DNA from: Propionibacteriales bacterium
GTDB taxonomy: Bacteria; Actinomycetota; Actinomycetes; Propionibacteriales; Propionibacteriaceae
DNA: 13,690 nucleotides
Direction: 5' to 3'
Assembly: GCA_030453285.1 (NCBI GenBank)
Contig: JAKDKP010000008.1
Location: 1 to 13,690 of the forward strand
Both the position numbers and the translations under genes were made by a program. Each line of letters opens with the position of its first letter. Position 1 is the first letter of the stretch. The notes beneath the pieces are model-generated. The model did not search any database, was not told where the DNA came from, and saw nothing but the letters and a program-made list of their open reading frames with translations. Shown piece after piece: positions 1 to 13,690 of this stretch.

Positions 1-163
1 GGATCGTCATGTGCAGCGAGCCCGCGATCCTGGCCCCCTTCAGCGGCTGCGCCTGCCCGTACTCCGCGCGCATGGCCATCAGGCCGGGCATCTCGTGTTC
101 GGCCAGGGTGATCTCCTTGCGCCCGAACTCGGCGAGGGAGAGGTCAGCAACGCGAAAGTCCAT
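1..163 (-). CDS. ahcY: Adenosylhomocysteinase (S-adenosylhomocysteine hydrolase), N-terminal part, runs off the window
   Basis: Reading leftward from an ATG at 163-161, 54 codons are visible before the window edge. They give an N-terminus with the segments [29 protein letters not shown] and [14 protein letters not shown], which I recognise as the start of S-adenosylhomocysteine hydrolase. The family hydrolyses SAH to adenosine and homocysteine with bound NAD in the cytosol and so relieves product inhibition of methyltransferases. The catalytic and NAD-binding regions lie outside the window. There is no clear Shine-Dalgarno sequence before the ATG, but a promoter-like -10/-35 pair sits so close that the transcript may be leaderless. 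The gene ends the conserved housekeeping block shared with manB and the TobH gene. Identification is firm; completeness cannot be judged. Confidence 0.93.
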
Positions 164-170
164 GCCGCAC

Positions 171-199
171 AGGCTAGTGCCCTGCCTCGTTCGGTCGAA
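171..199 (-). promoter_or_regulatory. Possible leaderless promoter of ahcY
   Basis: On the minus strand a TAGCCT -10-like hexamer (176-171) lies 17 bp from a TTCGAC -35-like hexamer (199-194). Only 7 bp separate the -10 from the ahcY ATG, so transcription would start at or next to the start codon. Leaderless mRNAs are common in actinobacteria, and the lack of a Shine-Dalgarno sequence agrees. The -35 overlaps a short inverted repeat, GTTCG-gt-CGAAC (189-200), which could be an operator. This rests on motif resemblance only. Confidence 0.35.
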
Positions 200-232
200 C
201 CACGGGCCGGATCGGCGGCATCGCCGTCGTGG
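200..232 (-). terminator. Possible hairpin terminator downstream of aroQ
   Basis: About 40 bp beyond the aroQ stop there is a nested inverted repeat. The outer arms are CCACG/CGTGG (200-204 and 228-232); the inner arms are CGGCG/CGCCG (213-217 and 222-226) around a 4-nt loop. There is no T-tract, so it would be a non-canonical terminator at best. The gap 164-272 holds no credible gene. It also carries a direct repeat, ATCAGCTCCG, at 235-244 and 253-262. Confidence 0.22.
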
Positions 233-272
233 CCATCAGCTCCGATGCGGCGATCAGCTCCGGCGGGCACGG

Positions 273-785
273 TCAGTCCGAGGAGGCCGGGTCGTCGACC
301 GGTGAGACGGGCGGTCTGAGCTGGTGCACCTGGCCCTCCGATCGTTGCCTGCGCCACGCAATCACCGCCAGGGCCAGCTCGTAACCGTCGGTCCCCAAGC
401 CGACCAGCACGCCGTTCACGTACGGGGAGACCACCGAATGGCGGCGGAACTCCTCACGGGCGTGGATGTTGGACAGGTGCACCTCGTACACATCGGCCGT
501 GCATTGGGCCACGGCGTCGGCAATCGCGATGTTGTAGTGGCTCCACGCGGCCGGGTTGATGATCACCGGCAGCTCCTGGTCGGCGGCCTCGTGCAGCCAA
601 CTGATCATGTACGCCTCGGAGTCGGTCTGGCGTACGTCGACGCTGAGGCCGAGCTCTTCTCCCCGCCGGACCAGGCTCTCGGCGATGTCGTCATGGGTAC
701 GGCGTCCGTACACCTCGGGCTGGCGTCGGCCCAGACGGCCAAGATTGGGTCCGTTGAGGACCAGGACCGGCTGCGGGTCGACCAT
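273..785 (-). CDS. aroQ: Type II 3-dehydroquinate dehydratase
   Basis: The 170-residue product is a type II dehydroquinase, which converts 3-dehydroquinate to 3-dehydroshikimate in the shikimate pathway and normally forms a cytosolic dodecamer. Visible motifs are VLNGPNLGRLGRRQPEVYG at 8-27, IINPAAWSHYNIAIADA at 75-91 and EVHLSNIHAREEFRRHS at 101-117. Compared from memory with the M. tuberculosis enzyme, every active-site residue is kept with an offset of two: R21, Y26, N77, H83, D90, E101, H103, R110 and R114. The SEA sequence at 56-58 is also mycobacterial. A C-terminal tail of about 25 residues exceeds the usual 145-150. I chose the ATG at 785 because it starts just before the conserved first strand. 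An in-frame ATG at 845 would add 20 arginine-rich residues. Neither has a good ribosome binding site. No other aro genes are nearby. Confidence 0.92.
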   Translation of the reverse strand: MVDPQPVLVLNGPNLGRLGRRQPEVYGRRTHDDIAESLVRRGEELGLSVDVRQTDSEAYMISWLHEAADQELPVIINPAAWSHYNIAIADAVAQCTADVYEVHLSNIHAREEFRRHSVVSPYVNGVLVGLGTDGYELALAVIAWRRQRSEGQVHQLRPPVSPVDDPASSD

Positions 786-790
786 GATCA

Positions 791-805
791 GTGACCGCCA
801 GTCAC
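791..805 (-). repeat. Inverted repeat just upstream of the aroQ start
   Basis: Perfect 5-bp arms GTGAC (791-795) and GTCAC (801-805) with a 5-nt spacer lie 5 bp upstream of the chosen aroQ ATG, where a Shine-Dalgarno sequence would be expected. It may be a small mRNA hairpin or a chance repeat. The 786-870 gap between aroQ and the TobH gene shows no clear promoter. Confidence 0.3.
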
Positions 806-870
806 GGCGACGCGGTTGTTCTCTTCGGTGTCCACAGTTGATCATCCTGCCAGAAGAATTGCCTGGAACC

Positions 871-1902
871 TCAGGTCCGGTTGCCGAGGCGGCCGAGACC
901 GATGGCCAGGTAGTGACATCCGTACAGGCCCTGTTGCAGCAGGGCAGCGTAGCGGTCGATGTCGGCGCCTTCGTCCGCCACGACCACCGTCACGCGTACG
1001 TCGTGACGTTCGGCGGCAGCCAACAGCCGCCCCCGGGCGGCTCGGATCCACGCCTCGGTGTTGCCGTCGTCGAGGATCACCAGGGCCGGACGGACCTCGG
1101 GGTCGTCGAAGGGGTCGGCAAACGGATCGCGCTCGGTGACGCCCTCGACCACCGGCAGGAGTGCGTCGGCGTCGGCCGCCAGTGCGGGCCGACCGCTGGC
1201 GGCGCGCAGCCCCTCGGCGACCCGTCGCGAGGCACGGGAGGCGAGCACCGATCCGCCCCAGACCAATGGTTGGGCCTCGCCAACCGCCAACGCCATCTCC
1301 TTGCCCGGGTTGGTCGCCAGATCGGTGTACGGGGAGCACCGCCGCGCCATGTCGTCCACCGCCTCGGCCACCTGCTCGATCGCCACCGGCGGACCCAGCT
1401 CCATCCGGTGCAGGCCGGCCAGCATCACCACCGCCGCGCTCAGGCTGTCCCCGGTCCGGGTGACGAGCCTGATCGTCGAGGAGGAGGCGGCGTGCTCGGT
1501 GAGCGGGGAACCGTCTGGGCAGGCGATGATCACTTGGGCGCCGCGTCGGACGGCCTCCCGGGCTGTTGCCACCAACGCCGGTTCGGCCGCCTCGGCGGCC
1601 AGGATGACAACCAGGTCGAGTGGACCCACCCAGCCCGGCAGCCCGGCCACCGGCCAGGCGACGAACGGCACCGGGCAGACCGGTTCCAACAGGGCCCGTA
1701 CCAGCCGTGCCTCGCCGCCGACGGCAATCACCGCCCGCGGCCGGTCATCGGTGCCTAGGGCGGCCAGGCCGGACTCGGCGGCGGCGGCCTCGATCCGCAG
1801 CCGGGAGCCGGCCTCGGCCAAGTGACGCAGAACAGGATCTGCCGCCGCCAGAACGCGCTCATCCTCCAGCAGGGCATCGTCGAAGACCGTCATGCAGGCC
1901 AT
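871..1902 (-). CDS. TobH-family SIS-domain protein (PGI/PMI-like)
   Basis: The 343-residue protein resembles the actinobacterial TobH family, related to bifunctional phosphoglucose/phosphomannose isomerases. An N-terminal SIS-like half contains AVIAVGGEARLVRALLE near 58-75. A C-terminal half of the bact-PGI_C type carries NPGKEMALAVGEAQPLVWGGS near 197-217. The Asn-His-Asn-Glu segment and nearby residues used by true PGI/PMI enzymes are not seen, so isomerase activity is doubtful. The family usually sits beside manB, which suggests a role in mannose or nucleotide-sugar metabolism. The start may be the ATG at 1902 or at 1893 (MTVFDD); neither has a strong ribosome binding site. Only 39 bp separate it from the binding-protein gene upstream, so it may be read as the tail of the iron operon. 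Family assignment is good; function is unknown. Confidence 0.82.
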   Translation of the reverse strand: MACMTVFDDALLEDERVLAAADPVLRHLAEAGSRLRIEAAAAESGLAALGTDDRPRAVIAVGGEARLVRALLEPVCPVPFVAWPVAGLPGWVGPLDLVVILAAEAAEPALVATAREAVRRGAQVIIACPDGSPLTEHAASSSTIRLVTRTGDSLSAAVVMLAGLHRMELGPPVAIEQVAEAVDDMARRCSPYTDLATNPGKEMALAVGEAQPLVWGGSVLASRASRRVAEGLRAASGRPALAADADALLPVVEGVTERDPFADPFDDPEVRPALVILDDGNTEAWIRAARGRLLAAAERHDVRVTVVVADEGADIDRYAALLQQGLYGCHYLAIGLGRLGNRT

Positions 1903-1941
1903 TCTGCCGCGCTCGACGCAGAACCAAGCGCCAGCATCGGG

Positions 1942-2943
1942 TCAGGCCTTCGCCGCCAACTGGGTCAGCCGCTCATCCAGTACGCCGATCACGACCTCGG
2001 CCAGGGTCCAGGAGCGGTCGCCGCCGGACGGGATCTGGATCAGACGATCATTCTTGACTGCCGGGATCGACTGACCGAGCTTGCCCTCAAGGAATGCCTT
2101 GACATCGGGCAGCGGTGCCAATTCACCGGTGTTGTTGCCGCCCACCACGATCAGGTCGGCCTCAGACAGCAGACCGACGGCCTGCTCGGCGGCGTAGGTG
2201 CCGCCCAGTTTCCCGCCCTGGATGCACTCCATCCCGATCATGGCCCCGACCGTGCTGTCCCACTCACCCGCGTACTGGATCGCGATGGTGCCGTCCTGTT
2301 CCCACGAGTTGACCGCCAGAGCCTTCTTGCCCTTGAGGAAGGCGGCATGGCGCTTCCCGACCTCGGTGGCCTGCTGCTGGACCCGTGCCATCAAGGCCTC
2401 CGCCGCTGCGCGTTGGTTGATCACGTCGGCAAGATCAGCGAACTGGACGAGACGATCGTCGGGCTTCTTGGGTGGCACGGCTCCCACCGGGGCGATCTCA
2501 GCGAGGCGTTCGAGGTTGCCCGAACCGTCGGTCAGTCCGGGTGCCGGCATGCAGACCACGATCACATCGGGTGCCATCGCGGCAATCCCTTCGTAGTCGA
2601 TTTCGCGTGGGGTGCCGATCTTGGGGATCGCTGCGTACTTCGCCGCCAGTTCCTTGGTGGTCATGCCCTGGTAGAAGGGGTCCTCGGTGAGCCCGACGGC
2701 GTTCACGTCAGGCAGCTCCAGCAGATGGGTGGCGGCCACCAGCACGATGCTCGCCGGTGCACTCGGCACGTCGACAGGCCCCTGGAAGCTCTGCACGGTA
2801 CGCATGCCGGCGTCTCCGGCGGCCTTGTCCTGGCCTCCTGATGGGCCACCGCATCCGGCGACGACCAAGGTGGCGAAGAGACCGCCACCCAGCGCGAGGG
2901 CACCGCGGCGACCGAGACGTGTGGCGGGAAGGTTGTTGATCAT
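1942..2943 (-). CDS. Ferric-siderophore ABC transporter, substrate-binding lipoprotein
   Basis: The 333-residue protein is a class III (FecB/FepB/BtuF-like, PF01497-type) binding protein that would capture a ferric siderophore outside the membrane and deliver it to the FecCD permeases. The N-terminus has an LGRRGALALG twin-arginine-like stretch (R12, R13), a hydrophobic segment and a lipobox VAGC with C31 as the lipidation site, so it may be a Tat-exported lipoprotein. The family hallmark GTPREIDYEGIAAMAPDVIVV lies near 111-131. The start at 2943 is set by AGGAG six bases upstream; an in-frame ATG at 2976 lacks such a site and falls in a palindrome. It is the last transport gene, 155 bp after the ATPase gene, unlike the overlaps among the others, so it may have separate control. 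Haem or cobalamin as ligand is possible, but the SIP partner favours siderophore. Confidence 0.9.
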   Translation of the reverse strand: MINNLPATRLGRRGALALGGGLFATLVVAGCGGPSGGQDKAAGDAGMRTVQSFQGPVDVPSAPASIVLVAATHLLELPDVNAVGLTEDPFYQGMTTKELAAKYAAIPKIGTPREIDYEGIAAMAPDVIVVCMPAPGLTDGSGNLERLAEIAPVGAVPPKKPDDRLVQFADLADVINQRAAAEALMARVQQQATEVGKRHAAFLKGKKALAVNSWEQDGTIAIQYAGEWDSTVGAMIGMECIQGGKLGGTYAAEQAVGLLSEADLIVVGGNNTGELAPLPDVKAFLEGKLGQSIPAVKNDRLIQIPSGGDRSWTLAEVVIGVLDERLTQLAAKA

Positions 2944-3098
2944 GAGTTCTCCTGGTGAGGGTGAGTGTGTCGGCATGCCGACGGCGGCGTCGGCGCGGAC
3001 GCGACAATGTGGGTGTTCGGGACCGTGGGATGTTCGGGGCCCGAGGCGTCTTCGGCGACGTCGTGTCCGGGCCCGGGGACGAGTCGGGCGATCGTCTG
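2944..3098 (-). other. Structured intercistronic gap before the binding-protein gene
   Basis: This 155-bp gap separates the ATPase stop from the binding-protein start and holds no plausible gene. It contains a 14-bp perfect palindrome, GTCGGCATGCCGAC (2969-2982), 25 bp upstream of the ATG. It also has a GC-only inverted repeat, GGGCCCG/CGGGCCC (3037-3043 and 3068-3074), a 10-bp palindrome CCGGGCCCGG (3067-3076) and a TGTTCGGG direct repeat (3014-3021 and 3031-3038). No T-tract, iron box or convincing -10/-35 pair is visible. An mRNA processing or stability element, or a weak internal operator, would fit. Confidence 0.4.
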
Positions 3099-4025
3099 TC
3101 AGCGCAGGTGGGCAGGATTCGCGAGGGCAGAGTGATCGTCGGGTCGCGTCGGGCGCGGGCCGCGACGCGGCACCACCATCGGACCACCCTCGACCGGGTC
3201 TTCAATCACGACCGCGTCGAGACCGAACACGTCGGAGACCAGGTCGGCGGTGATGATCTGTTCGGGGCGCCCCTCGGCGACGATCTCACCCTCACGCATG
3301 GCGATCACGTGGGTGCCGTACCGGCAGGCCTGGTTGAGATCGTGCAGTACTGCCACGATCGTGCGCCCCTGGTGGTTGAGGTGGCCGAACAACTCCAGCA
3401 ACTCCACCTGGTGGGCCACGTCGAGAAAACTGGTCGGTTCGTCGAGCAGGAGCAGCTCGGTCTGCTGGGCCAGGGCCATCGCCACCCAGACCCGCTGCCG
3501 CTGACCACCGGACAACTCATCGACCAGCCGGTCGGCCAGGTCGACGGTGTTGGTGGCCGCCAGCGCATCGGTGACCGCCTGCTCGTCGGTCGATGTCCAC
3601 TGCCGAAAGAGTCCCTGATGCGGGTTGCGGCCGCGCGCGACGAGGTCGGCCACCGAGATGCCTTCGGGGGCAATGGACGACTGGGGCAGCAGACCGAGCC
3701 GTTTGGCGACGTCCTTGCTGCGCAGCCTTGCGATGTCTCGACCGTCCAGCAGCACCTGCCCGTTCCTGGGCTGCAGCAGGCGGCTCAGGGCGCGCAGCAG
3801 GGTGGACTTGCCGCAGGCGTTCGGACCGACGATGACGGTGAACTCCCCTGCCGGGATCTCCACGTCCAGCCCGACCGAGATGACCCGTCGGTCGTACCCG
3901 ATCGTCAGATCACGACCGACCAAGGGGGCACCGGTCGGCGCTTCGGGCTCGCTGGGTTTCGTCGTGTCGTACGCCGCAGTCGTCGGCGGAGCCGGAGCAG
4001 CGGTGTCGGTGGTGGATGTGGTCAT
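3099..4025 (-). CDS. Ferric-siderophore ABC transporter, ATP-binding protein (FecE/FhuC type)
   Basis: This 308-residue ATPase would power siderophore import from the cytosolic face of the permease pair. All motifs are intact: Walker A GPNACGKST (67-75), Q-loop Q115, signature LSGGQ (171-175), Walker B LLLLDE (191-196) and H-loop H228. The sequence around them (LLPQSS, DEPTSFLDVAHQVE, VLHDLNQA) is that of the FecE/FhuC/BtuD group. An N-terminal extension of about 34 residues, rich in Thr, Ala and Pro, and a Pro/Arg-rich tail of about 30 residues are longer than usual and look disordered. The start at 4025 overlaps the upstream permease stop as ATGA, which points to translational coupling. Open frame continues upstream to 4850, but that part is only the shadow of the permease gene. 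Confidence 0.95.
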   Translation of the reverse strand: MTTSTTDTAAPAPPTTAAYDTTKPSEPEAPTGAPLVGRDLTIGYDRRVISVGLDVEIPAGEFTVIVGPNACGKSTLLRALSRLLQPRNGQVLLDGRDIARLRSKDVAKRLGLLPQSSIAPEGISVADLVARGRNPHQGLFRQWTSTDEQAVTDALAATNTVDLADRLVDELSGGQRQRVWVAMALAQQTELLLLDEPTSFLDVAHQVELLELFGHLNHQGRTIVAVLHDLNQACRYGTHVIAMREGEIVAEGRPEQIITADLVSDVFGLDAVVIEDPVEGGPMVVPRRGPRPTRPDDHSALANPAHLR

Positions 4026-5101
4026 GCGAGTTGCCTCCTCGCCTCGTGGATGAGCAGCCAGACCAGATACAGGCCGCCGATGCTGACGGTGACCACCCCG
4101 ACGGGGACCTGGCGTTCGCCGAATGCGTGTTGCGCGACCAGATCGGCCACCGACAGCAGCAGCCCGCCGACCACCGCCGAGCCGAGCAGTGTCGTACCCG
4201 CTGCGCCGGTCACCCGGCGTGCGATCTGTGGCGCCGCGAGCGCCACGAAGGCGATCGGTCCGGCCGCAGCCGTGGCAACGGCCACCAGTGCGACACCGAT
4301 CACGATCATCAGCAACCGACTGCGCTCGGTGTCGGTGCCCAGAGCGCGGGCCAGATCGTCGCCCATCTCCATCTGTCGCAGGGATCGCGCCTGGGTCCAC
4401 AACGCGACCGACGCGAGTGCGATCATGATCAACGCCGGAGTCACCTTCGTCCAGCTCAGGCCGTTCAGGGAGCCGACGCCCCAGGAGGCCGCCGCCAAGG
4501 CGATGTCCAGGTCGGCACGCATGATCAACCAGGTGTTGATCGAACTGATCACCGCGGTGACCCCGATGCCGACGATGATCAACCGGAAGCCCTGCACGCC
4601 TCGATTCCAGGCCAGCAGGTAGATCACCAGCGCGGTCACCAGGCCACCGATGATGGCTCCGGCAGAGACGCTCAGCACACCGTCGCCGAGCACGATGATG
4701 GTGATGATGCCGCCGGCATGCGCGCCGGTGGAGAAGCCGATGATGTCGGGGCTGCCGAGAGGGTTGCGCGTCAGGGACTGGAAGATCGCCCCGGAGAGTC
4801 CGAGCGCGGCACCAAGCACAAGCCCGGCCACCACCCGCGGCGCTCGCCACTGGGTGACGACGGTCCGTTCGATCCGAGTGCCGTCGCCGAGGAACACCGC
4901 CACCAGACGGTCCAACGGAATGGCCAGGGAGCCGAGCACCAGACCGAGGACGGCGGCCACCAATGCCAGCAGGGCGAGGAGGCCGATCACGGTGAGCACT
5001 CGTACGTCGATGCGGGCGTGGAACGGCGCAGGCAGAGTGAGCATCCGGTGTCGCGTGCGAGGCGAGCTGTCGCCGCGGTCGGTGACGGGAGCACTGATCA
5101 T
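4022..5101 (-). CDS. Ferric-siderophore ABC transporter permease (FecCD family), second subunit
   Basis: The 359-residue protein is an integral membrane permease of the FecCD/BtuC family, with many hydrophobic helices after a polar N-terminus of about 33 residues. The family motif GAIFQSLTRNPLGSPDIIGF, which contacts the ATPase, lies roughly at residues 105-125, and the downstream GDDLARALGTD segment is also characteristic. It would pair with the permease encoded just upstream to form the channel. The start at 5101 overlaps the stop of the first permease in an ATGA, and its own stop overlaps the ATPase start in the same way, so it is the middle of a coupled operon. Open frame to 5473 upstream is a shadow of the other permease. 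The substrate is inferred from neighbours, not from this sequence. Confidence 0.93.
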   Translation of the reverse strand: MISAPVTDRGDSSPRTRHRMLTLPAPFHARIDVRVLTVIGLLALLALVAAVLGLVLGSLAIPLDRLVAVFLGDGTRIERTVVTQWRAPRVVAGLVLGAALGLSGAIFQSLTRNPLGSPDIIGFSTGAHAGGIITIIVLGDGVLSVSAGAIIGGLVTALVIYLLAWNRGVQGFRLIIVGIGVTAVISSINTWLIMRADLDIALAAASWGVGSLNGLSWTKVTPALIMIALASVALWTQARSLRQMEMGDDLARALGTDTERSRLLMIVIGVALVAVATAAAGPIAFVALAAPQIARRVTGAAGTTLLGSAVVGGLLLSVADLVAQHAFGERQVPVGVVTVSIGGLYLVWLLIHEARRQLA

Positions 5102-6171
5102 GGTGCGCTCGCCGCCTTCTTGCGCCGGACGAGGAAGATCAACACCGGCGCGCCGAGGAAGGCGGTGACGATGCCCACCGGCATTTCTCCGGGCCACACC
5201 AGGAAGCGACCGAGGATGTCGGACAGCAGCACGAGGATGGCGCCGACGAAGATCGCGTACGCGCAGATCCAGCGTTGATCTGGACCGACGAACCACCGCA
5301 CCACGTGGGGCACCATCAGGCCGACGAAGCCGATCGGTCCGGCGATCGCGGTGGCCGAGCCGGCCAGCAGGGTGACCGCGATGACGACCACCACCCGGGT
5401 GCGACCCACGTGGGTGCCGAGCGAGGCAGCCAGATCGTCGCCGAGCATGATCGAGTTCAAGGCCCGCGAACACAGCAGTGCCAGCACCAGACCGACAGCC
5501 AGCAACGGAAGCACCGGCCCCATCGTCGCCAGGTCACGCCCGGCGACCGAGCCTGCGTTCCAGGAGCGCATCGCGTCGAACGTGGTCGGCTCCAGCAGCA
5601 TGAGTCCGGTGGTGAAGCCGGCCAGGGCCGCCCCCAGCGCGACGCCCGCCAGGGTCATCCGGATGGGACCGGTGGTGCCGCGCCCAGCCGAGCCGATCAG
5701 GTACACCGCCACCGTCGCCACCAACGCACCGCCGAGGGCAAACCACACGTACTGGCCGACGGTGGTCAAACCGAAGAAGCCGATGCCGATCACCACGGCG
5801 AAGGCGGCCCCGGCGTTCACGCCGAGGATTCCCGGGTCGGCCAGCGGATTGCGGGTCAGCGCCTGGATCATGCAACCGGCGACCGCCAGGCCGGTACCGA
5901 CAATCATGGCCAGGACCGTACGAGGCACCCGCAGCTCGGTGATGATCAACTGGTTCTCCGAGCCGTTGAAGGCGGTCAACGCCTGCCAGGCCGTCTCCAG
6001 TGGCATCAGCTTCGACCCCACCGCCAGCGAGACGATGGCGCACAACAGCATGACGGCCGCAGCCACCAGCAGACCCAGGAAACGCTGATGGTTCCGCGTG
6101 ACCAGCCCACTGCGAATCGCCCGGGGCTGCTCGGCGCTGGTGGTCACCGGCCGGTCGAGCACCGCCGTCAT
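5098..6171 (-). CDS. Ferric-siderophore ABC transporter permease (FecCD family), first subunit
   Basis: The 357-residue FecCD/BtuC-type permease has about nine or ten hydrophobic segments after a polar N-terminal stretch of about 30 residues. The hallmark GCMIQALTRNPLADPGILGV lies near residues 98-118, and GDDLAASLGTHVGRTR with a following GPIGFVGLMVPHVVR segment matches the coupling-helix region of the family. It is expected to form the heterodimeric channel with the next gene product and to take ferric siderophore from the lipoprotein. The start (6171) overlaps the SIP-fusion stop as ATGA, so its translation is probably coupled to that reductase. This direct coupling of a cytosolic reductase and a permease suggests that import and iron release are co-expressed in fixed ratio. 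Confidence 0.94.
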   Translation of the reverse strand: MTAVLDRPVTTSAEQPRAIRSGLVTRNHQRFLGLLVAAAVMLLCAIVSLAVGSKLMPLETAWQALTAFNGSENQLIITELRVPRTVLAMIVGTGLAVAGCMIQALTRNPLADPGILGVNAGAAFAVVIGIGFFGLTTVGQYVWFALGGALVATVAVYLIGSAGRGTTGPIRMTLAGVALGAALAGFTTGLMLLEPTTFDAMRSWNAGSVAGRDLATMGPVLPLLAVGLVLALLCSRALNSIMLGDDLAASLGTHVGRTRVVVVIAVTLLAGSATAIAGPIGFVGLMVPHVVRWFVGPDQRWICAYAIFVGAILVLLSDILGRFLVWPGEMPVGIVTAFLGAPVLIFLVRRKKAASAP

Positions 6172-8066
6172 CGGGTGAACACCTCCGCTCCGGCAAGATC
6201 GGGCAACGGATTCTCCGCAACGGGCCGACGATGGGCGATCAGGCAGATACGCCCCCAGCCGATGGTGGTCCGTTCCACGACGGGGAATCCGGACCGTACG
6301 ACCAGGGATTCCAGGTCGGCGTCGGTGCGCAGCCCGGTCCCGTGTGTGGTGAGGGCCAGCAGATCGGCCTCGGCGTTCTCGACCGCCCGGTCGCCGACGA
6401 CCCGCTCGAGCAGGACCAGGTGCGCCGCGCTGGTCCGCTGCAGCAGCTCAAGCGCCCGCTCGTCTGCCAGCTCGGTCAGCGCGTCGGACAACACCAGCAC
6501 GTCGACGTGGTCGGTCAAGGAACCGCCCGCCGCCTGCTCGAGGGACGTTCCCTTGACCTGGATGGCCTCGCGGCGGCTGGTGCTGCCGCAGAGAGCATCC
6601 AGATCGGCGGTCGCCCAATCCACCACCGCGGGCGGGACGAGAACCGTGACCTTCGACACCCGACGGGCCAGCGCATTGGCCAGCGACGTCGTGCCCAGTC
6701 CGGTCACCGCGATTGACCGGGCTTCGGCCACGACGGGCAAGGCGGCGAGATTGGTGGCGAACCAGCCCGTCTCCTCGGCGGCCCGGCGCTGCAGCGCGAC
6801 CTCGATCTCAGCGCGTCGAGCACGCAGGGTGGCGTACGAATCGCCGTGCACGCGGGCGAATCCGTCTGCTCCGCGCAGGGTGTCGACCAGACCGACGAGT
6901 CCCAATTCGGCGAGCGCCGCCGGACGATTCAGGTCAAGGTGGTCAGCCAGATGATCATCATCCAACGCCTCGCCCAACGTGGTCGGGCGATGGCCGGCAT
7001 CGGTGGCCACGGCAACACCCAGGGCAGCCAGTGCGTCCAACACCTTGGCCAGACGATCGGGGCGAACCTCGGTGGCCGCAGCCAGCTCGTCGATCCGCTC
7101 CAGCCCCCGCTCCCAGGCGGCCGGCAATCCGATGGTGACCGCGGCCCGCAGCACCAAGGGAGCCAACAACTCCGACATCTCGTGCAGTCGGACGACCGGA
7201 TGCTCGCCCGGGTCGGTGCCGGCGTCGGTGCGTCGCCAGTAGCCGACGATCTCCAGACGCTCGGGCGGGACGCCGCGCTCATCGCGCAGATGGCGACGGA
7301 TCGGTTTGAGCGACGTGGCCTCACCGGCAACGAAGGCGTACACCGAACCGGGCCACCACGGGGCCGTACGAATGGCTTCGCCGAGCAGCTGTCCCGGCAC
7401 CACCTCATCCCTGCCCGGACGACCCAGGCCCTCCCGGATCAATCCCTCCCGGATCAACCAGGTGATGTCGATGCCCGGGCGGTGCGGCAGATCGTCCTGC
7501 ACGTCGGCCGGCCTCGCCACCTCGACGAACACCTGGGCCCTGGTCCCGGACGGGGCCTCGGTGATCCAGCGCCCGATCGCGGGCAGGGCGGTTTCGTCCC
7601 CGGCCACCAGATGCCAGTCAACGCCCTCGGGGAACCCGACGCACTCCTTGGGTCCGGCGAACCAGATCTTCTCCCCAACCACGCACCGTTCGGCCCAGCC
7701 ACTGGCCAGGCCCGCACCATGTCGTACGAAGTCCAAGGCCATCTCGCCGGTGGTCGGATCGAACGAGCGCACCGTGTAGTTCCTGGTCGCCGCAATCTGC
7801 TCGGGTTCCCACCTCAGCCGCCCGTCGGCCTGACCGGGCAGGGGCGGCGGTGTGCCGTCGGCGGCGGGAAACAGCAGCTTCACATGATCATCGAATCCCA
7901 CGCTGACCACCGGCGGCTGGGGATGCCCCTGCCGTACGAAGGCACCCATCTCGGGGCCGGCCACCACCACGCGTCGCATCCCGGGTGTGACATCACTCAC
8001 CCGTACCACCTCAACCTCGCGGAGGGTGATGGGATGAGACTCGAAATTCCGGATCGTGCGCGGCAT
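6168..8066 (-). CDS. Siderophore-interacting ferric reductase (SIP) fused to a degenerate O-methyltransferase-like domain
   Basis: The 632-residue protein has two parts. Residues about 11-279 are a SIP/ViuB-like flavin reductase: RNYTVRSFD (96-104) is the flavin-binding motif, GDETALPAI (156-164) starts the NAD(P)H-side region and GYWR (275-278) is the usual C-terminal end. Such enzymes reduce ferric siderophores in the cytosol to free iron. Residues about 297-370 then look like the winged-helix dimerisation domain of plant-type O-methyltransferases (IDELAAATEVRPDRLAKVLD), followed by a Rossmann-like region (430-613). There the SAM-binding motif is reduced to VTGLGTTSL, and the catalytic HDW is replaced in SDALTELADE, so methyl transfer is doubtful. 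I chose the ATG at 8066, with GGAGA five bases upstream, over the ATG at 8090, which has none. It is first in the minus-strand operon, just after the iron box. Confidence 0.9.
   Translation of the reverse strand: MPRTIRNFESHPITLREVEVVRVSDVTPGMRRVVVAGPEMGAFVRQGHPQPPVVSVGFDDHVKLLFPAADGTPPPLPGQADGRLRWEPEQIAATRNYTVRSFDPTTGEMALDFVRHGAGLASGWAERCVVGEKIWFAGPKECVGFPEGVDWHLVAGDETALPAIGRWITEAPSGTRAQVFVEVARPADVQDDLPHRPGIDITWLIREGLIREGLGRPGRDEVVPGQLLGEAIRTAPWWPGSVYAFVAGEATSLKPIRRHLRDERGVPPERLEIVGYWRRTDAGTDPGEHPVVRLHEMSELLAPLVLRAAVTIGLPAAWERGLERIDELAAATEVRPDRLAKVLDALAALGVAVATDAGHRPTTLGEALDDDHLADHLDLNRPAALAELGLVGLVDTLRGADGFARVHGDSYATLRARRAEIEVALQRRAAEETGWFATNLAALPVVAEARSIAVTGLGTTSLANALARRVSKVTVLVPPAVVDWATADLDALCGSTSRREAIQVKGTSLEQAAGGSLTDHVDVLVLSDALTELADERALELLQRTSAAHLVLLERVVGDRAVENAEADLLALTTHGTGLRTDADLESLVVRSGFPVVERTTIGWGRICLIAHRRPVAENPLPDLAGAEVFTR
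7429..7458 (-). repeat. 15-bp in-frame tandem duplication inside the SIP domain
   Basis: Two nearly identical 15-bp units (7429-7443 and 7444-7458, differing in the last base) encode LIREGLIREGLG at residues 204-215 of the SIP protein. It looks like a recent five-codon slippage duplication in a loop of the NAD(P)H-side domain. It keeps the frame and may vary between strains. Confidence 0.75.
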
Positions 8067-8106
8067 GCTGGTCTCCGTGGGCGCTGACATCGCTCTGACG
8101 CAAGCG

Positions 8107-8136
8107 ACAATAGACCCGTTAGGTTAGGCTCGCCAA
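8107..8136 (-). promoter_or_regulatory. Candidate promoter of the siderophore-uptake operon
   Basis: On the minus strand TTGGCG (8136-8131) and TATTGT (8112-8107) are spaced by 18 bp and each match four of six bases of the sigma-70-type consensus. Transcription would begin near 8100, giving a leader of about 34 nt to the ATG at 8066, which carries the GGAGA ribosome binding site. The iron box sits between and over these elements, so repressor binding would block polymerase. Confidence 0.5.
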
Positions 8137-8137
8137 A
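8119..8137. promoter_or_regulatory. DtxR/IdeR-type iron box in the divergent promoter region
   Basis: The 19-bp sequence TTAGGTTAGGCTCGCCAAA matches the well-known palindromic consensus TTAGGTTAGGCTAACCTAA at 16 of 19 positions; the mismatches are at positions 13, 14 and 17. It lies between the divergent SIP-fusion and ABC genes, both iron-transport-like. The expected action is repression by Fe(II)-loaded DtxR/IdeR when iron is plentiful and release when it is scarce. It is the only such box I found in the window. One half-site is perfect and the other is eroded. Confidence 0.88.
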
Positions 8138-8149
8138 CTGACCGTTCCT

Positions 8150-8172
8150 TGGACGCCTCCGCCCGGCGTCCA
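8150..8172 (+). promoter_or_regulatory. Leader hairpin upstream of the exporter-fold ABC operon
   Basis: A perfect inverted repeat with 8-bp arms (TGGACGCC at 8150-8157, GGCGTCCA at 8165-8172) and a 7-nt loop lies between the iron box and the first ABC gene. In RNA it would form a stable GC-rich stem ending 11 nt before the GGAGAG ribosome binding site. No T-run follows, so a simple terminator is unlikely. It could be a second operator, a stability element or a translational control structure. Confidence 0.5.
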
Positions 8173-8198
8173 CGATGCCCATCGGAGAGTTGCCCGGC

Positions 8199-9926
8199 AT
8201 GAGCCTGCTGCCCGCCCGACCGTGGTTCTTCCCCAAGGCCGAACCCCCCACGGTGAACTCCGTGCGGGTCGATGACACCACGACCCCACGCCGACTGACC
8301 ATCGCCACGATCACCGCGGCGCCCAAGCAACTGGCTCCGGCCGCCCTGCTGACCTCCTCCCACCAGATCGGCGAAGGCCTGGTCCCGGTCGTGGTCGGAC
8401 GGGCCGTCGATGAGGCGGTCGGCCCCGGCAATCCGATCGCCCTGCTGAGCTGGATCGGCGTCCTGGCCCTGGTGTTCTGCTGGTTGTCCTTCTCATACCG
8501 GTTCGGATCCCGGATCGGCTTCCTGGGGATGAACTCGGTGCAGCACGACATACGCATGCTGGTCACCGACAAGCTGCTCTCCCCTGCGGGACTCGGTGGC
8601 CCGGGCATGCGGATCGGCAACCGATTGTCGGTCGCCACCTCCGACACCACCATGCTGGCCACCTCGATGGGGCTGGGCATCTATGGGCCCGCAGCAGTCG
8701 CCGGGGTGCTGGTCTGCGCCGTCGTCCTGCTCACCATCTCCTGGCCGCTGGCCATCGCGGTGATCGTCGGTGCTGCCGGAATCCTCTTCCTCGGCGATGT
8801 GCTCGGCGGGGCACTGCGCCGACGCGTCGGCACCCAGCAGGCCGCGATCGCCGATGCCGCCGGCACCGCGACCGATCTCGTGCACGGACTACGGGTGATC
8901 AAGGGACTCGGCGCTCAGGAGACCGCTGCCACCCGCTACGCCGGCGTCTCGGCCAATGCCCTCACTGCCGCCGTGCGCGCGGCCCGCTCCCAGGCGCGCT
9001 CGCTCGCAGTGCTGCAGATCCTCTCGGGCGTGTTCGTGGTCGCCATTGGTGTCACGGCCGGATGGATGGCCCTGGAAGGCATGATCACCGTCGGTGGGTT
9101 GATCACCGTGGTGATGCTGACCCAGTGGGTGATGGAACCGATCGGCAGCATGGCGCACATCGTCAACTTCTTCTGGAACCCCGGAATCGCTGCCGCCACA
9201 CGGATCCTCGACGTCCTGCGCGCCGGCCCCGCGGTCACCGAACGACCCAACGCCGTTGAGCTGGCCCGCACCGTCGGCGGCCGCGGCCTCCACCTGTTCG
9301 CGTCCGGGGTCGACGTACGGGCAGCACCGGGCGAACACCTCGTGCTGGGCTGCGATCCGGCGGCCCGCTCCCACTGGGCCGGTCTGCTGGCGCGGACCAC
9401 CGAGTCGACCGACAGCACGGTGACCGTCACCGACGACGGCGCCAGCAGCCGCGAGGTCGACCTCGCCGAGGTGACTCTCGCCTCGGCACGTCGCGCCGTC
9501 CTGGTGGTACCGCACGAGGCACCACTGTTCGAGGGCAGCGTGCTCGACAACGTCACCCTCGGCGGCGATCGGCCACCAGAACCCGTCCTCCACGCCGCCG
9601 CCTGCGACCAGGTGGCCGAGATGCTTCCCGACGGCCTGGACACCGACGTCGGTGACCAGGGCAGTCACCTCTCGGGAGGACAGCGGCAACGCGTCGGCCT
9701 CGCCCGTGCGCTGTACGCCGACCCCGACATCCTCGTCCTGCTGGATCCCACCTCGGCGGTCGACTCGGTCACCGAGGATGCAGTTGCCCGCGAGACGCTT
9801 GCGCTGCGCCGGGGGCGGACCACCATCGTGCTCACCGACTCCCCCGCCTGGGCCCAGCACGCTGATCGGACCGATCACGTGCCCGTACTCACCTCAAGCA
9901 CACCGACCGAGAGGGAGGGTCGATGA
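8199..9926 (+). CDS. Exporter-fold ABC half-transporter with degenerate ATP-binding motifs, subunit 1
   Basis: The 575-residue protein has an N-terminal membrane region (about 45-330) of the type I exporter fold and a C-terminal ATPase domain. That domain has lost almost every nucleotide motif. The Walker A position reads GCDPAARSH (384-392) with no GKS/T. The Walker B region is ILVLLDPTS (511-519), with Leu for Asp and Asp for the catalytic Glu. The Q-loop Gln is His (439) and the H-loop His is Asp (547). The signature LSGGQRQR (491-498) is perfect. The protein should therefore give its signature to the ATP site of its partner. GGAGAG at 8184-8189 favours the ATG at 8199 over one at 8175. 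The stop overlaps the next gene as ATGA. The link to siderophores is inferred from the iron box and the neighbouring SIP gene. Confidence 0.9.
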   Translation: MSLLPARPWFFPKAEPPTVNSVRVDDTTTPRRLTIATITAAPKQLAPAALLTSSHQIGEGLVPVVVGRAVDEAVGPGNPIALLSWIGVLALVFCWLSFSYRFGSRIGFLGMNSVQHDIRMLVTDKLLSPAGLGGPGMRIGNRLSVATSDTTMLATSMGLGIYGPAAVAGVLVCAVVLLTISWPLAIAVIVGAAGILFLGDVLGGALRRRVGTQQAAIADAAGTATDLVHGLRVIKGLGAQETAATRYAGVSANALTAAVRAARSQARSLAVLQILSGVFVVAIGVTAGWMALEGMITVGGLITVVMLTQWVMEPIGSMAHIVNFFWNPGIAAATRILDVLRAGPAVTERPNAVELARTVGGRGLHLFASGVDVRAAPGEHLVLGCDPAARSHWAGLLARTTESTDSTVTVTDDGASSREVDLAEVTLASARRAVLVVPHEAPLFEGSVLDNVTLGGDRPPEPVLHAAACDQVAEMLPDGLDTDVGDQGSHLSGGQRQRVGLARALYADPDILVLLDPTSAVDSVTEDAVARETLALRRGRTTIVLTDSPAWAQHADRTDHVPVLTSSTPTEREGR

Positions 9927-11701
9927 CCACCTTCGGAATCGCCACCTCGCGCCAGGTGCGGCACACCTTGGGAGAGGTTTTCGAGGGCCGTCGACTCGGT
10001 CTCGTCGGCGCCGCTGTCGTGCTCGCCGCGGCCGCAACGGCCGGCCTGGTGATGCCCAACGTGATGGGCCGGATCGTCGACCTCGTCGGGGCGCGAGGGC
10101 GTGCCGTGGTCACCGACGGGCTGGGTGAGCTGATCATGCTCGGACTGATCATGGTGGCCGGCGTCGTCGTGGCCGCCGTCCTCACCGCCCTGGGCACCAT
10201 CTGGGCGGTGACGGTGGTCGAGGGTGCCGTCGCCGGGCTGCGCGAACGACTCGTGGCCCACCTCGTACGGCTGCCCAATGCCGTGGTCGAGGACGCCGGG
10301 TCGGGAGATTCGATCTCACGTGCCACTGATGACGTGGCGGAGGTCTCGACAGCGGTGAACCAGGTGCTGCCGGCAGTATCGGGGGCGTTGTTCACCATCG
10401 TGCTGACCTTCGTCGGGCTCAGCGTGATCGATTGGCGTTTCGCCGTGGCGCTGGCCCTGGTCATCCCGATCCAGTTGCTGGCCGTACGGCTCTACCTCAA
10501 GCGCGCGCCGGCCCAGTACGCCGCCGAACGGGCCGCGATGGCCGACCGAGCCCAGGCGGTGCTCGGTTCCCTGCGCGGCATCGATGCGGTCCGTGCGCAC
10601 CAGTTGGAGACCCGACGGCGGAACCTGATCGCGGGCCACTCCTGGCGAGTCGTGCACTGGGCCATGCATCAGCGGGTCACCAACAACCTGTTCTGGGGTC
10701 GGCTCAACCTTGCCGAGTTCTGCGGGATGACGCTGCTGCTGCTGACCGGCTTCTGGCTGGTCGGCACCGGCCAGGCCACCACCGGCACGACCACCGCGGC
10801 GGTGCTGCTGTTCCATCGCCTCTTCGGACCGATCGGACAGTTGCTGATGGTGGTCGACACCTGGCAGTCCGCGGCCGCCTCGCTGCGACGCATCGTCGGT
10901 GTGCTGTCGGTGCCGACCACGGCCGGCGACCAGGCGATCCCGGCACAGGTGGGGGCCGGCGCATTGCTGGTCGAGGACGTGCGGTTCGCGTACGGGCCGG
11001 GGCAACGGCCCACCCTGGACGGACTCGGACTGGCGATCGCGTCGGGGTGTTCGTTGGCCGTGGTGGGCGCCTCCGGTGCGGGAAAGTCGACCCTGGCCGC
11101 GATCATTGCCGGCCTGCGGCCTCCCGACGACGGGCGGGTGCTCGTCGACGGGATCGACCTGCGCACCCTGGACGGCCCGGCGCGCTCCCGGATCGTCGGA
11201 TTGGTCACCCAGGAGTCACACGTGTTCGCCGCGACCGTACGGGACAACCTCACCCTGGCTGCTGCGGTTGACGACGACACCCTGTGGCGCGCCCTGTCCC
11301 GGGTGGGGGCCAAGGAGTGGATCGAGGCCCTGCCCGACGGATTGGACGAGATGCTCGGCGCGCACGGTGTCACCCCGAGCGGGCCCCAGGCGCAACAGTT
11401 GGCCCTGGCCCGACTCGATCTGCTCGATCCGCCGGTGGTGATCCTGGACGAGGCGACTGCCGAGGCGGGCAGCGTGAATGCCGCCCGATTGGACGCCGCG
11501 GCCCGTACGGTCACCTCTGGCCGCACGACGATCATGATCGCGCACCGACTCGACCAGGCTCGTACGGCCGACGCGATCGCCCACGTCGCCGACGGGCGGA
11601 TCACCGAACTCGGCAGCCACGACGAACTGGTGGCCGCCGGCGGCCGCTATGCGGCCCTGTGGTCGGCCTGGTCGCGGGGCCGCCGACAGCCCGACGAGTG
11701 A
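9923..11701 (+). CDS. Exporter-fold ABC half-transporter, catalytic subunit 2
   Basis: The 592-residue partner has a type I exporter membrane region (about 25-325) and an ATPase domain with intact Walker A GASGAGKST (382-390), Q430, Walker B VVILDE (505-510) and H541. Its signature is degenerate (PSGPQAQQ, 485-492), and the D-loop reads AEAG where SALD is usual. These defects are the mirror image of those in subunit 1, so the pair should have one working site formed by this Walker A and the LSGGQ of the other protein. A strong GGGAGGG (9913-9919) precedes the overlapping ATG. It may export a siderophore or import one as mycobacterial IrtAB does; sequence alone cannot tell. It converges on the Trm112-like gene with only 9 bp between stops and no room for a standard terminator. 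Confidence 0.92.
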   Translation: MTTFGIATSRQVRHTLGEVFEGRRLGLVGAAVVLAAAATAGLVMPNVMGRIVDLVGARGRAVVTDGLGELIMLGLIMVAGVVVAAVLTALGTIWAVTVVEGAVAGLRERLVAHLVRLPNAVVEDAGSGDSISRATDDVAEVSTAVNQVLPAVSGALFTIVLTFVGLSVIDWRFAVALALVIPIQLLAVRLYLKRAPAQYAAERAAMADRAQAVLGSLRGIDAVRAHQLETRRRNLIAGHSWRVVHWAMHQRVTNNLFWGRLNLAEFCGMTLLLLTGFWLVGTGQATTGTTTAAVLLFHRLFGPIGQLLMVVDTWQSAAASLRRIVGVLSVPTTAGDQAIPAQVGAGALLVEDVRFAYGPGQRPTLDGLGLAIASGCSLAVVGASGAGKSTLAAIIAGLRPPDDGRVLVDGIDLRTLDGPARSRIVGLVTQESHVFAATVRDNLTLAAAVDDDTLWRALSRVGAKEWIEALPDGLDEMLGAHGVTPSGPQAQQLALARLDLLDPPVVILDEATAEAGSVNAARLDAAARTVTSGRTTIMIAHRLDQARTADAIAHVADGRITELGSHDELVAAGGRYAALWSAWSRGRRQPDE

Positions 11702-11710
11702 GGCGGCAGG

Positions 11711-11902
11711 TCAGCTCTGGGGGCGGGTCGGGCGTGCCTCGTCGATGAGCAGCACCGGCACCTGGTCGCGAACCGGGTACGCCAGCGCACAGTCGGCGGC
11801 GGTGCAGACCAACTCGCCCGCTTCATGATCAACAGCCAGGGACGAGTGGCACTGTGGGCAGGCAAGAATCTGGAGCAGTTCGGGATCGAGTTCGACAGCC
11901 AT
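11711..11902 (-). CDS. Trm112-like small zinc-binding protein
   Basis: The 63-residue protein belongs to the Trm112p/UPF0434 family. Four cysteines are placed for one zinc ion (C15, C18 in CPQC; C33 and C38), followed by the conserved AYPVRDQVPVLLIDEA at 41-56. In eukaryotes Trm112 activates several methyltransferases; in bacteria the role is unclear. The last cysteine pair is spaced CxxxxC where many family members have CxxC. AGAGGA lies six bases before the ATG at 11902. The gene begins 9 bp after the manB stop, so both are probably co-transcribed. In other actinobacteria the TobH gene would be expected next, but here the iron island intervenes. Confidence 0.88.
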   Translation of the reverse strand: MAVELDPELLQILACPQCHSSLAVDHEAGELVCTAADCALAYPVRDQVPVLLIDEARPTRPQS

Positions 11903-11911
11903 GATGTCCTC

Positions 11912-13333
11912 TCAGGCCTCGGCCGCGACGATCGCGAGCACTTCGTCGCGCAATCGTTCGACGGCCTCGGTGGTGGGTGCCTCGACATTGAGTCTCAGCA
12001 GGGGCTCGGTGTTGCTCGGTCGCAGATTGATCCACCAGTCGGGTCCGGAGATGGTCAGCCCGTCGCCACGGTCCTGATCACCGCGGCTCTCGAAGGCCTC
12101 CGCAACCGCTGCCATGCAGGCTTGGGCATCGGTGACGGTGGAATTGATCTCGCCGCTGGAGGCGTAGCGGGTGAAGTCCTGCACCAGCTCGGACAAGGTG
12201 CCGCCGGAGTGACCCAGCAGGGCGATCGTGTGCAGGGCGGCCAGCATGCCGGTGTCGGCACCCCAGAACTCGCGGAAGTAGAAATGCGCCGAATGCTCCC
12301 CGCCGAAGATCGCATCGTGCTCGGCCATCGCCGCCTTCACCGAGGTGTGCCCAACCTTGGAGACGACGATCTGCCCGCCCAGTTCGGTGACGATCTCCGA
12401 CACCGCCCGCGAGGTGATCGTGTTGATCACCACGGTCGCGCCGGGTTCACGATGCAACTCCTGACTGGCGATCAGGGCGGTCAGGGTTGAGGGGTCCACC
12501 ACCGCACCGCGTTCGTCGATGATGAAGCAGCGATCGGCATCCCCGTCGAAGACCAGACCAAGATCAGCACCGTTGGCACGAACGGCCTGTTGGGCATCGA
12601 TGAGGTTCTCCGGGATCAGCGGGTTGGGTTGATGATGGGGAAAGCTGCCGTCGAGGTCGGTGTACAGGCCGATCAGTTCGGCATCGATGTCGGCGAAGAC
12701 CGCGCCCAGGGTGTGCCCGGCCATCCCGTTCCCGGCATCAGCGACGACGGTGAGCCGCCTGATGTCAGTCAGGTCCACCAGGGAATGCAGGTGCGCGGCG
12801 TACGCGGGCAGCAGATCCTGCACAGTGACGGTCCCTTCCCCGTCGCAGGCCGGGGTGGACGCGGCGACCCGCTCCTGGAGACGGGCCAGATGGTCAGGGG
12901 TGACCGGAGCGGCGCCGCTCAGGCAGAACTTCACACCGTTCCAGTCGCCGGGGTTGTGGCTGGCGGTGAACATCACCCCCGGCAGGCCGAGGCGACCAGA
13001 GGCGAACCACAGCAGGTCGGTGCTGGCCAGGCCGATGTCGATCACGTCGACCCCGCGGGAGGTGACACCGGTGATGAAGGCGGCTGCCAGGATCGGGCTG
13101 GTGACGCGCATGTCCCGCCCGATCACGAGGCGGCCAGAGCCGCTCCCGGGGTCGGCGCCGGCCAGGCCCAGCACGTCGGCCCAGGCGGCGCCGAGCAGCC
13201 GGGCACCTTCGGCGTCCCACTGGACGTCCGGCCCGGTGACCAGCCCACGGCTGTCGGTGGCCTTGAAGCTCGCAGAGTTCAGCAGCGGGGGACTCCTATC
13301 GGCCGCGGCCCACAGTCGAAGCACACCGACCAC
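11912..13333 (-). CDS. manB: Phosphomannomutase/phosphoglucomutase
   Basis: The 473-residue product is an alpha-D-phosphohexomutase that interconverts mannose-6-phosphate and mannose-1-phosphate (some also act on glucose phosphates), feeding GDP-mannose and glycolipid or glycan synthesis. Motifs, numbered from the GTG at 13333, are the phosphoserine loop TASHNPGDWNG (123-133, S125), metal loop DGDADR (263-268), sugar-binding GGEHSAH (344-350) and phosphate-binding RPSNTEP (438-444). The start is uncertain. GTG at 13333 or 13324 leaves an atypical leader and no good ribosome binding site. AGGAGT (13297-13292) sits six bases before a CTG at 13285, which would start the protein LLNSASFKATDSRG, close to the usual N-terminus. 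I give the conventional GTG as the outer limit. The familiar KAYDIRG reads KATDSRG here. Confidence 0.92.
   Translation of the reverse strand: MVGVLRLWAAADRSPPLLNSASFKATDSRGLVTGPDVQWDAEGARLLGAAWADVLGLAGADPGSGSGRLVIGRDMRVTSPILAAAFITGVTSRGVDVIDIGLASTDLLWFASGRLGLPGVMFTASHNPGDWNGVKFCLSGAAPVTPDHLARLQERVAASTPACDGEGTVTVQDLLPAYAAHLHSLVDLTDIRRLTVVADAGNGMAGHTLGAVFADIDAELIGLYTDLDGSFPHHQPNPLIPENLIDAQQAVRANGADLGLVFDGDADRCFIIDERGAVVDPSTLTALIASQELHREPGATVVINTITSRAVSEIVTELGGQIVVSKVGHTSVKAAMAEHDAIFGGEHSAHFYFREFWGADTGMLAALHTIALLGHSGGTLSELVQDFTRYASSGEINSTVTDAQACMAAVAEAFESRGDQDRGDGLTISGPDWWINLRPSNTEPLLRLNVEAPTTEAVERLRDEVLAIVAAEA
13292..13297 (-). promoter_or_regulatory. Strong ribosome binding site in front of a CTG codon of manB
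   Basis: AGGAGT on the minus strand lies inside the manB reading frame if the GTG starts are used. It is separated by six bases (CCCCCG) from CTG at 13285-13283. Its strength and spacing suggest that translation may really begin at this CTG. No ATG, GTG or TTG occurs at the right distance. Confidence 0.45.
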
Positions 13334-13361
13334 GCGGGCGGCCCGGCTCCGACGTCGTGGC

Positions 13362-13690
13362 TCAGTGGCGCTGGTGGGCGTCAGGGTCGGCCAGCATCGT
13401 CAGGTGGCCGCGACGGCGTACCTCGACAACCGTCGACTCGGCCGTACGAGGTCCTCGCTCGGCCGATTCGTAGGAGAACCCGACCTCCCGTACGGCATCG
13501 GCCAGGGCCAACAGATCGTCGCTGGAGGGCTCGGGCTCGGAGTCGTTCGCCAGCCGGATCACTTCCCATCCTCGCGGGGCCGACAGTCCGTGGGCATGCT
13601 GGGCGCACAGGTCGTAGCCATGCGGTTCGGCGCGTGTCGCCAAGGGGCCGAGCACGGCGGTGGAGTCGGTGTAGACGTAGGTCAAGGTCT
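13362..13690 (-). CDS. DUF3499-family protein, N-terminus cut by the window edge
   Basis: About 109 residues are visible, starting in TLTYVYTDSTAVLGPLATRA and followed by YDLCAQHAHGLSAPRGWEVI, which I recognise as the DUF3499 family of actinobacteria. The family normally begins about 15 residues earlier with a cysteine-containing segment; this probably joins the visible C and H of DLCAQH to bind zinc, but it is outside the window. The TTG at 13685 is internal, not the start. The C-terminal third is charged and poorly conserved. Function is unknown. The gene commonly precedes manB, and here its stop is 28 bp before the first manB GTG, so the two probably share a transcript. Confidence 0.85.
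   Translation of the reverse strand, partial: TLTYVYTDSTAVLGPLATRAEPHGYDLCAQHAHGLSAPRGWEVIRLANDSEPEPSSDDLLALADAVREVGFSYESAERGPRTAESTVVEVRRRGHLTMLADPDAHQRH

Follow-up and report, generated by a model that had tools for sequence, protein, structure and literature searches.

We analysed a stretch of 13,690 nucleotides (the window) from a Propionibacteriales bacterium of the family Propionibacteriaceae (assembly GCA_030453285.1, contig JAKDKP010000008.1, forward-strand positions 1-13,690; the assembly comprises 769 contigs and is 82.6% complete). The window carries a gene in which a SIP-type ferric-siderophore reductase runs on, in a single open frame, into a degenerate O-methyltransferase (OMT) domain, here called the pseudo-OMT (Table 1). 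That the reductase continues unbroken into a region of the OMT class had been noticed earlier from the letters of the sequence, and both Pfam matches and the predicted structure bear this out. The N-terminal half has the SIP fold, with PF08021 at 90.7 bits (curated cut-off 23) and PF04954 at 118.7 bits (cut-off 26.3) in the expected order; from its family membership, we predict it to be an NAD(P)H-dependent ferric-siderophore reductase with flavin adenine dinucleotide (FAD). A second in-frame ATG lies upstream at 8090. A wrong frame or start for the gene was considered and rejected, the start at 8066 being backed by an N-terminus conserved in relatives.

The C-terminal half is modelled by AlphaFold with high confidence, and structure comparison with O-methyltransferases, the check which the earlier note had proposed, matched it to their fold. 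By profile it does not qualify as a Methyltransf_2-type domain: measured against the curated Pfam cut-offs, PF08100 reaches 16.7 bits (cut-off 25.6) and PF00891 is not listed. Among a chosen subset of 71 fusion rows, PF08100 is matched by 69 and PF00891 by 64 at an E-value of 0.001, while the window protein matches neither.

Table 1. Features of the fusion gene and its surroundings in the window (pLDDT, predicted local distance difference test; ABC, ATP-binding cassette; SAM, S-adenosylmethionine).
Feature	Position	Strand	Remarks
SIP-pseudo-OMT fusion gene	6168..8066	-	632 aa + stop, one open frame
SIP FAD-binding domain PF08021	7647..8012	-	residues 19-140, Pfam match
SIP domain PF04954	7230..7619	-	residues 150-279, GYWR at end
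Low-confidence linker	7200..7226	-	residues 281-289, pLDDT <50 in predicted structure
Winged-helix dimerisation-type part of OMT fold	6924..7199	-	residues ~290-381, boundary drawn from secondary structure
Helical connector and Rossmann core of OMT fold	6225..6923	-	residues ~382-614, approximate boundaries
Degenerate SAM motif I, VTGLGTTSL	6681..6707	-	residues 454-462; DVGGGTGTL in intact relative
Degenerate catalytic segment, SDALTELADE	6459..6488	-	residues 527-536; T531, E532 at His-Asp position
HGTGLRT	6324..6344	-	residues 575-581; L579 at Glu position of GGxERT
FecCD permease 1	5098..6171	-	4-base overlap with end of fusion gene
FecCD permease 2	4022..5023	-	homologous part; start approximate
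Siderophore ABC ATPase	3099..4040	-	homologous part; start approximate
Peripla_BP_2 siderophore-binding lipoprotein-like gene	1942..2976	-	Pfam match
IrtA-like ABC protein	8175..9926	+	ABC_membrane and ABC_tran only; no SIP domain, no Walker A
IrtB-like ABC protein	9923..11701	+	Walker A intact
DtxR/IdeR-type iron box	8119..8137	+	between divergent genes; 3 mismatches to consensus
Genes flanking the cassette (phosphomannomutase, PGI-C-like SIS)	871-1902 and 11912-13333 (minus)		

The window protein was aligned with an intact relative from Microlunatus soli (L017, identical to P0124) and with the O-methyltransferase TnmH. At SAM motif I (DxGxGxG) it reads VTGLGTT, so that the Asp and one of the three glycines are gone, and T531-E532 (in ALTEL) and L579 stand in for the catalytic His-Asp and Glu. 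The dead forms lack the acidic residues that intact forms carry in motif I and following the second strand (DVGGG, VELP): the window has VTGLG and no acid after the second strand, and the largest dead clade has IHSGG and CALP. Against solved O-methyltransferases, the intact relative matches at 6.5e-45 (to 3i53, NcsB1), the window only at ~2e-10. The alignments confirm the previously suspected loss of the SAM motif and the catalytic residues, and strong sequence evidence indicates that the methyltransferase half of the window protein is dead.

The fusion belongs to a broad actinobacterial family and is not a peculiarity of one gene. Within the Propionibacteriaceae, 13 of 198 genomes matched the C-terminal domain, and all 15 genes found were SIP fusions (one of them, L019, shortened). 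The C-terminal part alone as query returned three proteins, the window's own among them; the full-length profile was needed to find relatives, and matched 504 proteins at E ≤0.001. The 120 of these matches that were listed are 603-656 amino acids long, contain both SIP domains according to precomputed annotation, and, where a source name is given, bear SIP or ferric-siderophore-reductase names or are called 'hypothetical protein'. Scanning named genomes yielded 49 loci belonging to 25 named genera (including Streptomyces, Actinoplanes, Nocardioides, Kribbella, Pseudonocardia, Microbacterium, Corynebacterium and Tessaracoccus) plus one metagenome-assembled genome labelled Acidimicrobiales. At 46 of the 49 loci, one open frame aligned to the window protein over a span starting no later than residue 60 and reaching past residue 500; L067 is shortened, L069 is cut by a contig end, and the match of L074 ends at 441. 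In a 60-genome sample of the class, the frame of L084 extends 355 amino acids beyond SIP. In a sample of the phylum, 6 of 396 genomes had matches at E ≤1e-70, with full-profile fusions in three (G000, G358, G304) and the SIP part only in the other three; with this strict threshold and three scored candidates per genome, some fusions may have been missed. Set beside the 49 loci in many genera, these three genomes suggest that the fusion is widely spread, yet sparse. Tessaracoccus caeni (L067/L019) has a shortened second fusion copy beside a full-length one in the same genome.

The view of a dead SIP-OMT fusion, as first put forward, holds for the window gene but needs widening, because fusions with an intact OMT exist and the largest dead clade has a replacement motif. 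Groups were assigned by motif strings, with L052 counted in the largest dead clade. The intact clade (P0124-P0130, P0132, which comes from Actinomadura rugatobispora, and P0133) keeps motif I, and most of its members keep HDWP and GER; P0128 has RN instead of HD, and P0129 has Ala instead of Glu. In the largest dead clade, the motif I position is occupied by LVIHSGGAGA ([IL]HSGGA in 91 of 135 rows of a first census), FKTLPD-like stretches take the place of HDWPD, and HGSGLRT that of GGxERT. Judged by these alignments, motif I in this clade has been replaced by another conserved motif, and has not merely decayed. The intact forms share an EQS[FV]FE stretch with the largest dead clade. The third group consists of further dead forms, including the window protein and P0002 (Propionibacteriaceae bacterium Y1700).

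In quick trees with SH-aLRT support only, the OMT domains of intact forms group at 99% (together with the free-standing P0131), those of dead forms at 99% (48 rows), and the window with P0002 at 100%. In the SIP tree, intact and dead fusions come together in a single clade (95%), with 27 of 28 unfused SIPs outside and the unfused L024 inside, and a constraint uniting the 57 fusions was not rejected (approximately unbiased test, p-AU 0.574). The simplest history would be one fusion, followed by one loss of the methyltransferase motifs; separate fusions for intact and dead forms were set aside as unneeded, given the shared SIP clade and the outcome of the constraint. There may nonetheless have been two fusions, or a split at a later time, since the fork that joins all fusions against free-standing OMTs is weak (76%), the outgroup of the SIP tree did not form one side of a branch, and P0131 lies inside the intact clade. 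Tree building used 19 of the 141 rows in the largest clade together with 29 of the 36 other dead forms, near-copies at 93% identity having been dropped; L064, L067, L069, L074 and L075 (broken, short, cut or very divergent) were left out, as were L011, P0124, P0140 and P0141. L015, L016 and P0003 form long branches, and their placement is unsure.

Comparison of the relatives suggests that the pseudo-OMT is constrained, tightly in one clade and less tightly in the others. Within the largest dead clade, mean pairwise identity is 73.0% for the pseudo-OMT and 74.3% for SIP (171 pairs, 19 chosen rows), versus 58.2% for the OMT and 67.4% for SIP in the intact clade (36 pairs), with the caveat that age and sampling may not be the same for the two clades. 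Positions conserved at ≥90% in the largest dead clade number 67 of 165 in the Rossmann core and 33 of 85 in the dimerisation part; the dimerisation part of the second dead clade has just 6 of 85. The ratio of non-synonymous to synonymous substitution rates (dN/dS), calculated by domain for pairs of relatives excluding the window, was 0.07-0.38 for SIP (13 pairs) and 0.22-0.58 for the pseudo-OMT (12 pairs, one of the 13 being too close).

Around the fusion gene, the window holds siderophore transporter genes on both sides and an iron box. The initial pattern for this box was made after the site had been seen, and scoring then used a DtxR/IdeR consensus, against which 0 of 200 shuffles were as good as the window's site. 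Around the gene start, a box with ≤5 mismatches is present in 35 of 48 relatives, compared with 13 of 960 stretches drawn at random from these loci, a control that may itself include true sites. The transporter neighbours and the iron box together place the fusion gene in iron-regulated siderophore uptake. A condensation domain of a non-ribosomal peptide synthetase (NRPS) was not found in the bacterium's own genome, at the stated completeness of the assembly, and the siderophores may therefore come from other organisms; in the same incomplete assembly, one enterochelin-esterase-like frame (31% identity) is found elsewhere.

The labels IrtA-like and IrtB-like were given from the arrangement of an ABC pair with exporter architecture. 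The IrtA-like subunit reads GCDPAARS at Walker A in the window, GxxGxGK[ST] is present in 0 of 34 related open reading frames (ORFs), and Walker B is altered; Walker A is present in 31 of 33 IrtB-like partners. From these motifs, the pair is predicted to be a one-sided ATPase, conserved across the family. The iron-uptake cassette is flanked by a phosphomannomutase gene on one side and by a PGI-C-like SIS gene (PF10432, slightly below cut-off) on the other, two genes that are adjacent in actinobacteria; the cassette was possibly inserted between them. No clear step in G+C was found.

Similar neighbours accompany the relatives. Among the 49 named loci, FecCD was matched at 42, the ATPase at 34, IrtA-like at 35, IrtB-like at 34, the binding protein at 39, an AraC-type protein at 43 (on the opposite strand at 42), an enterochelin-esterase-like gene at 19, and an NRPS at 8. 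These counts are tblastn matches (E 1e-8, within ≤9 kb), a few of which may represent paralogues (an additional weak ATPase match in L040, AraC matches of about 31% identity at some loci); absences are soft because some loci are truncated. Both the intact L017 and the dead form L016 lie directly beside a Peripla_BP_2 gene, and tblastn of their flanks found no FecCD match near either. In the largest clade, the regulator gene next to the fusion (L045 6464-8068, minus strand) encodes a 535-amino-acid protein with two AraC-type helix-turn-helix stretches. Beside the intact SIP-OMT of Microlunatus soli, a DUF2470 gene (L076 11841-12575, minus strand) adjoins the binding-protein gene; DUF2470 is reported to bind heme (PMC11014987). 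The fusion clusters of L028 (Streptomyces geranii), L054 and L066 also contain an NRPS and an aspartate decarboxylase (PanD), and that of L028 an ornithine/lysine hydroxylase as well; beta-alanine-containing siderophores are possible products of these three clusters.

Building on what sequence and computation establish, namely the fusion, the fold, the motif loss, the family, the constraint in relatives, the operon and the iron box, we propose that the protein is a cytosolic, iron-regulated reductase whose former OMT half is kept as a non-catalytic module that dimerises and holds the siderophore; we give this reading as a whole about an even chance of being right. Siderophores would be supplied by the adjacent FecCD/ATPase and IrtAB-like transporters, and the SIP half, with its FAD and NAD(P)H parts, would reduce their Fe(III) and release the iron. 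The C-terminal half would derive from an O-methyltransferase for phenolic substrates, whose SAM motif and catalytic residues would have been lost, in the simplest case a single time and later than the fusion, with the domain then retained; since the same fusion is found in iron-uptake clusters of many actinobacteria, the dead domain has probably taken on a new role. Enzymes of this fold class dimerise via the winged-helix region and bind phenolic substrates in a cleft; once the SAM motif has been lost, what such a domain can still offer is its dimer interface and its acceptor cleft. Most likely, the winged-helix part would join two subunits, as the fold class suggests and as fits the family name of PF08100 (Dimerisation), and the old cleft would hold a phenolate or catecholate siderophore, or the iron-free ligand, next to the flavin, as the substrate class and the neighbourhood suggest. 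Given the siderophore transporters nearby and, in part, the esterase relative, phenolate/catecholate holding seems the most economical reuse, a guess that the earlier note had also made. Dimerisation, siderophore binding or sensing had all been suggested beforehand for the second half, and such a reuse is plausible in this iron-uptake neighbourhood.

Several observations weigh against this proposal. The window protein and most dead rows keep two of the three motif I glycines (as do 155 of 193 rows at these columns; the counts include duplicates under two names, are biased by searches seeded with dead forms and are not population frequencies), which leaves the sequence compatible with binding of SAM or another nucleotide; two dead rows, P0090 and L072, have His at the catalytic position. 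Pseudo-OMT identity falls well below that of SIP among the other dead forms (42.2% vs 66.4%; 29 rows, 406 pairs) and between the window and P0002 (62.8% vs 83.9%), and in 11 of 12 pairs the pseudo-OMT has a higher dN/dS than SIP; this faster divergence and higher dN/dS point to weaker constraint than on SIP. As to the ligand, an esterase that would hint at catecholate lactones is present at just 19 of the 49 loci and is absent from the window, and an ornithine/lysine hydroxylase match at three loci points to hydroxamates.

The main rival, which we regard as a real but lesser possibility, is that the pseudo-OMT serves only for dimerisation or docking, delivering the reductase to the IrtAB-like or FecCD/ATPase transporter without binding the siderophore. 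This would parallel the direct SIP-transporter fusion of mycobacterial IrtA, but the even conservation of the largest dead clade over Rossmann core and dimerisation part exceeds the needs of a scaffold, a new motif has arisen at its SAM site, the dimerisation part is poorly conserved in the second dead clade, and an IrtA-like gene went undetected within the examined flanks of 14 of the 49 loci. It is unlikely that the C-terminal half instead binds SAM, another nucleotide or a new cofactor in an altered site, with enzymatic activity or a sensor role in tuning the reductase: the retained glycines and the conserved LVIHSGGAGA of the largest dead clade would suit such a site, and RdmB (1xds) binds SAM and does non-methyl chemistry in the same fold, but the dead forms have lost the acids of motif I and of the stretch following the second strand, and other residues stand at the catalytic positions. 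It seems very improbable that the second half is degenerating in the window lineage, a leftover required only not to harm the reductase; the far greater divergence of the pseudo-OMT than of SIP in the window-P0002 pair and in the second dead clade speaks for it, whereas the frame is open and full length in both window and P0002, the predicted structure folds with high confidence, and dN/dS is below 1 in all 12 pairs calculated among relatives. Finally, an assembly or sequencing error joining two genes, conceivable in so fragmented and incomplete a genome, is rejected as having a negligible chance, since searches for other SIP fusions, which the earlier note had called for, find the fusion in dozens of genomes (15 family loci, 120 listed proteins, 46 of 49 named loci in one open frame).

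A further, rather doubtful idea starts from a bifunctional reductase/OMT as ancestor of a branch of actinobacterial ferric-siderophore reductases. The intact clade would couple reductive iron release to O-methylation of the freed phenolic or catecholic ligand, blocking its rebinding of iron, and the dead branch, with the window protein in it, would have turned the domain into one that holds the ligand and offers the siderophore for reduction; if so, the new conserved motif of the largest dead clade stands where SAM once sat. The family raises the question of whether some bacteria methylate siderophores while stripping them of iron, and the dead domain may explain how these reductases choose among siderophores. 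With both intact and dead versions surviving in a sizeable family, it illustrates cleanly how an enzyme domain turns into a pseudoenzyme. No description of the fusion was found in titles and abstract openings of the open-access literature searched (subscription journals lying mostly outside it), nor in passages of PMC12305651 and PMC13238742. Apparently, then, a known reductase family has an undescribed, widespread and mostly dead second domain.

SIP reductases (PF08021 + PF04954) such as that of Thermobifida fusca (4yhb) have the same domains as the N-terminal half, but the window protein extends ~350 amino acids further into an OMT fold; SIP-only chains matched in the PDB have 250-301 amino acids, compared with 632 in the window fusion. 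Known SIP reductases are either stand-alone or fused to transporters. Compared with O-methyltransferases of the DnrK/TnmH/NcsB1 type (Dimerisation + Methyltransf_2), the window domain has the motif I Asp, the His-Asp and the Glu substituted, and sits behind a reductase instead. RdmB, an aclacinomycin-10-hydroxylase, is a member of the OMT fold described as non-methylating; it was solved with SAM, whereas the window domain is without most of the SAM motif. As with mycobacterial IrtAB, SIP in the window is tied genetically to an IrtAB-like ABC pair under an iron box. In mycobacteria, however, SIP is carried on IrtA, while in the window the corresponding ORF (8175-9926) consists of ABC_membrane and ABC_tran only, and SIP resides on a separate, divergent gene together with the pseudo-OMT.
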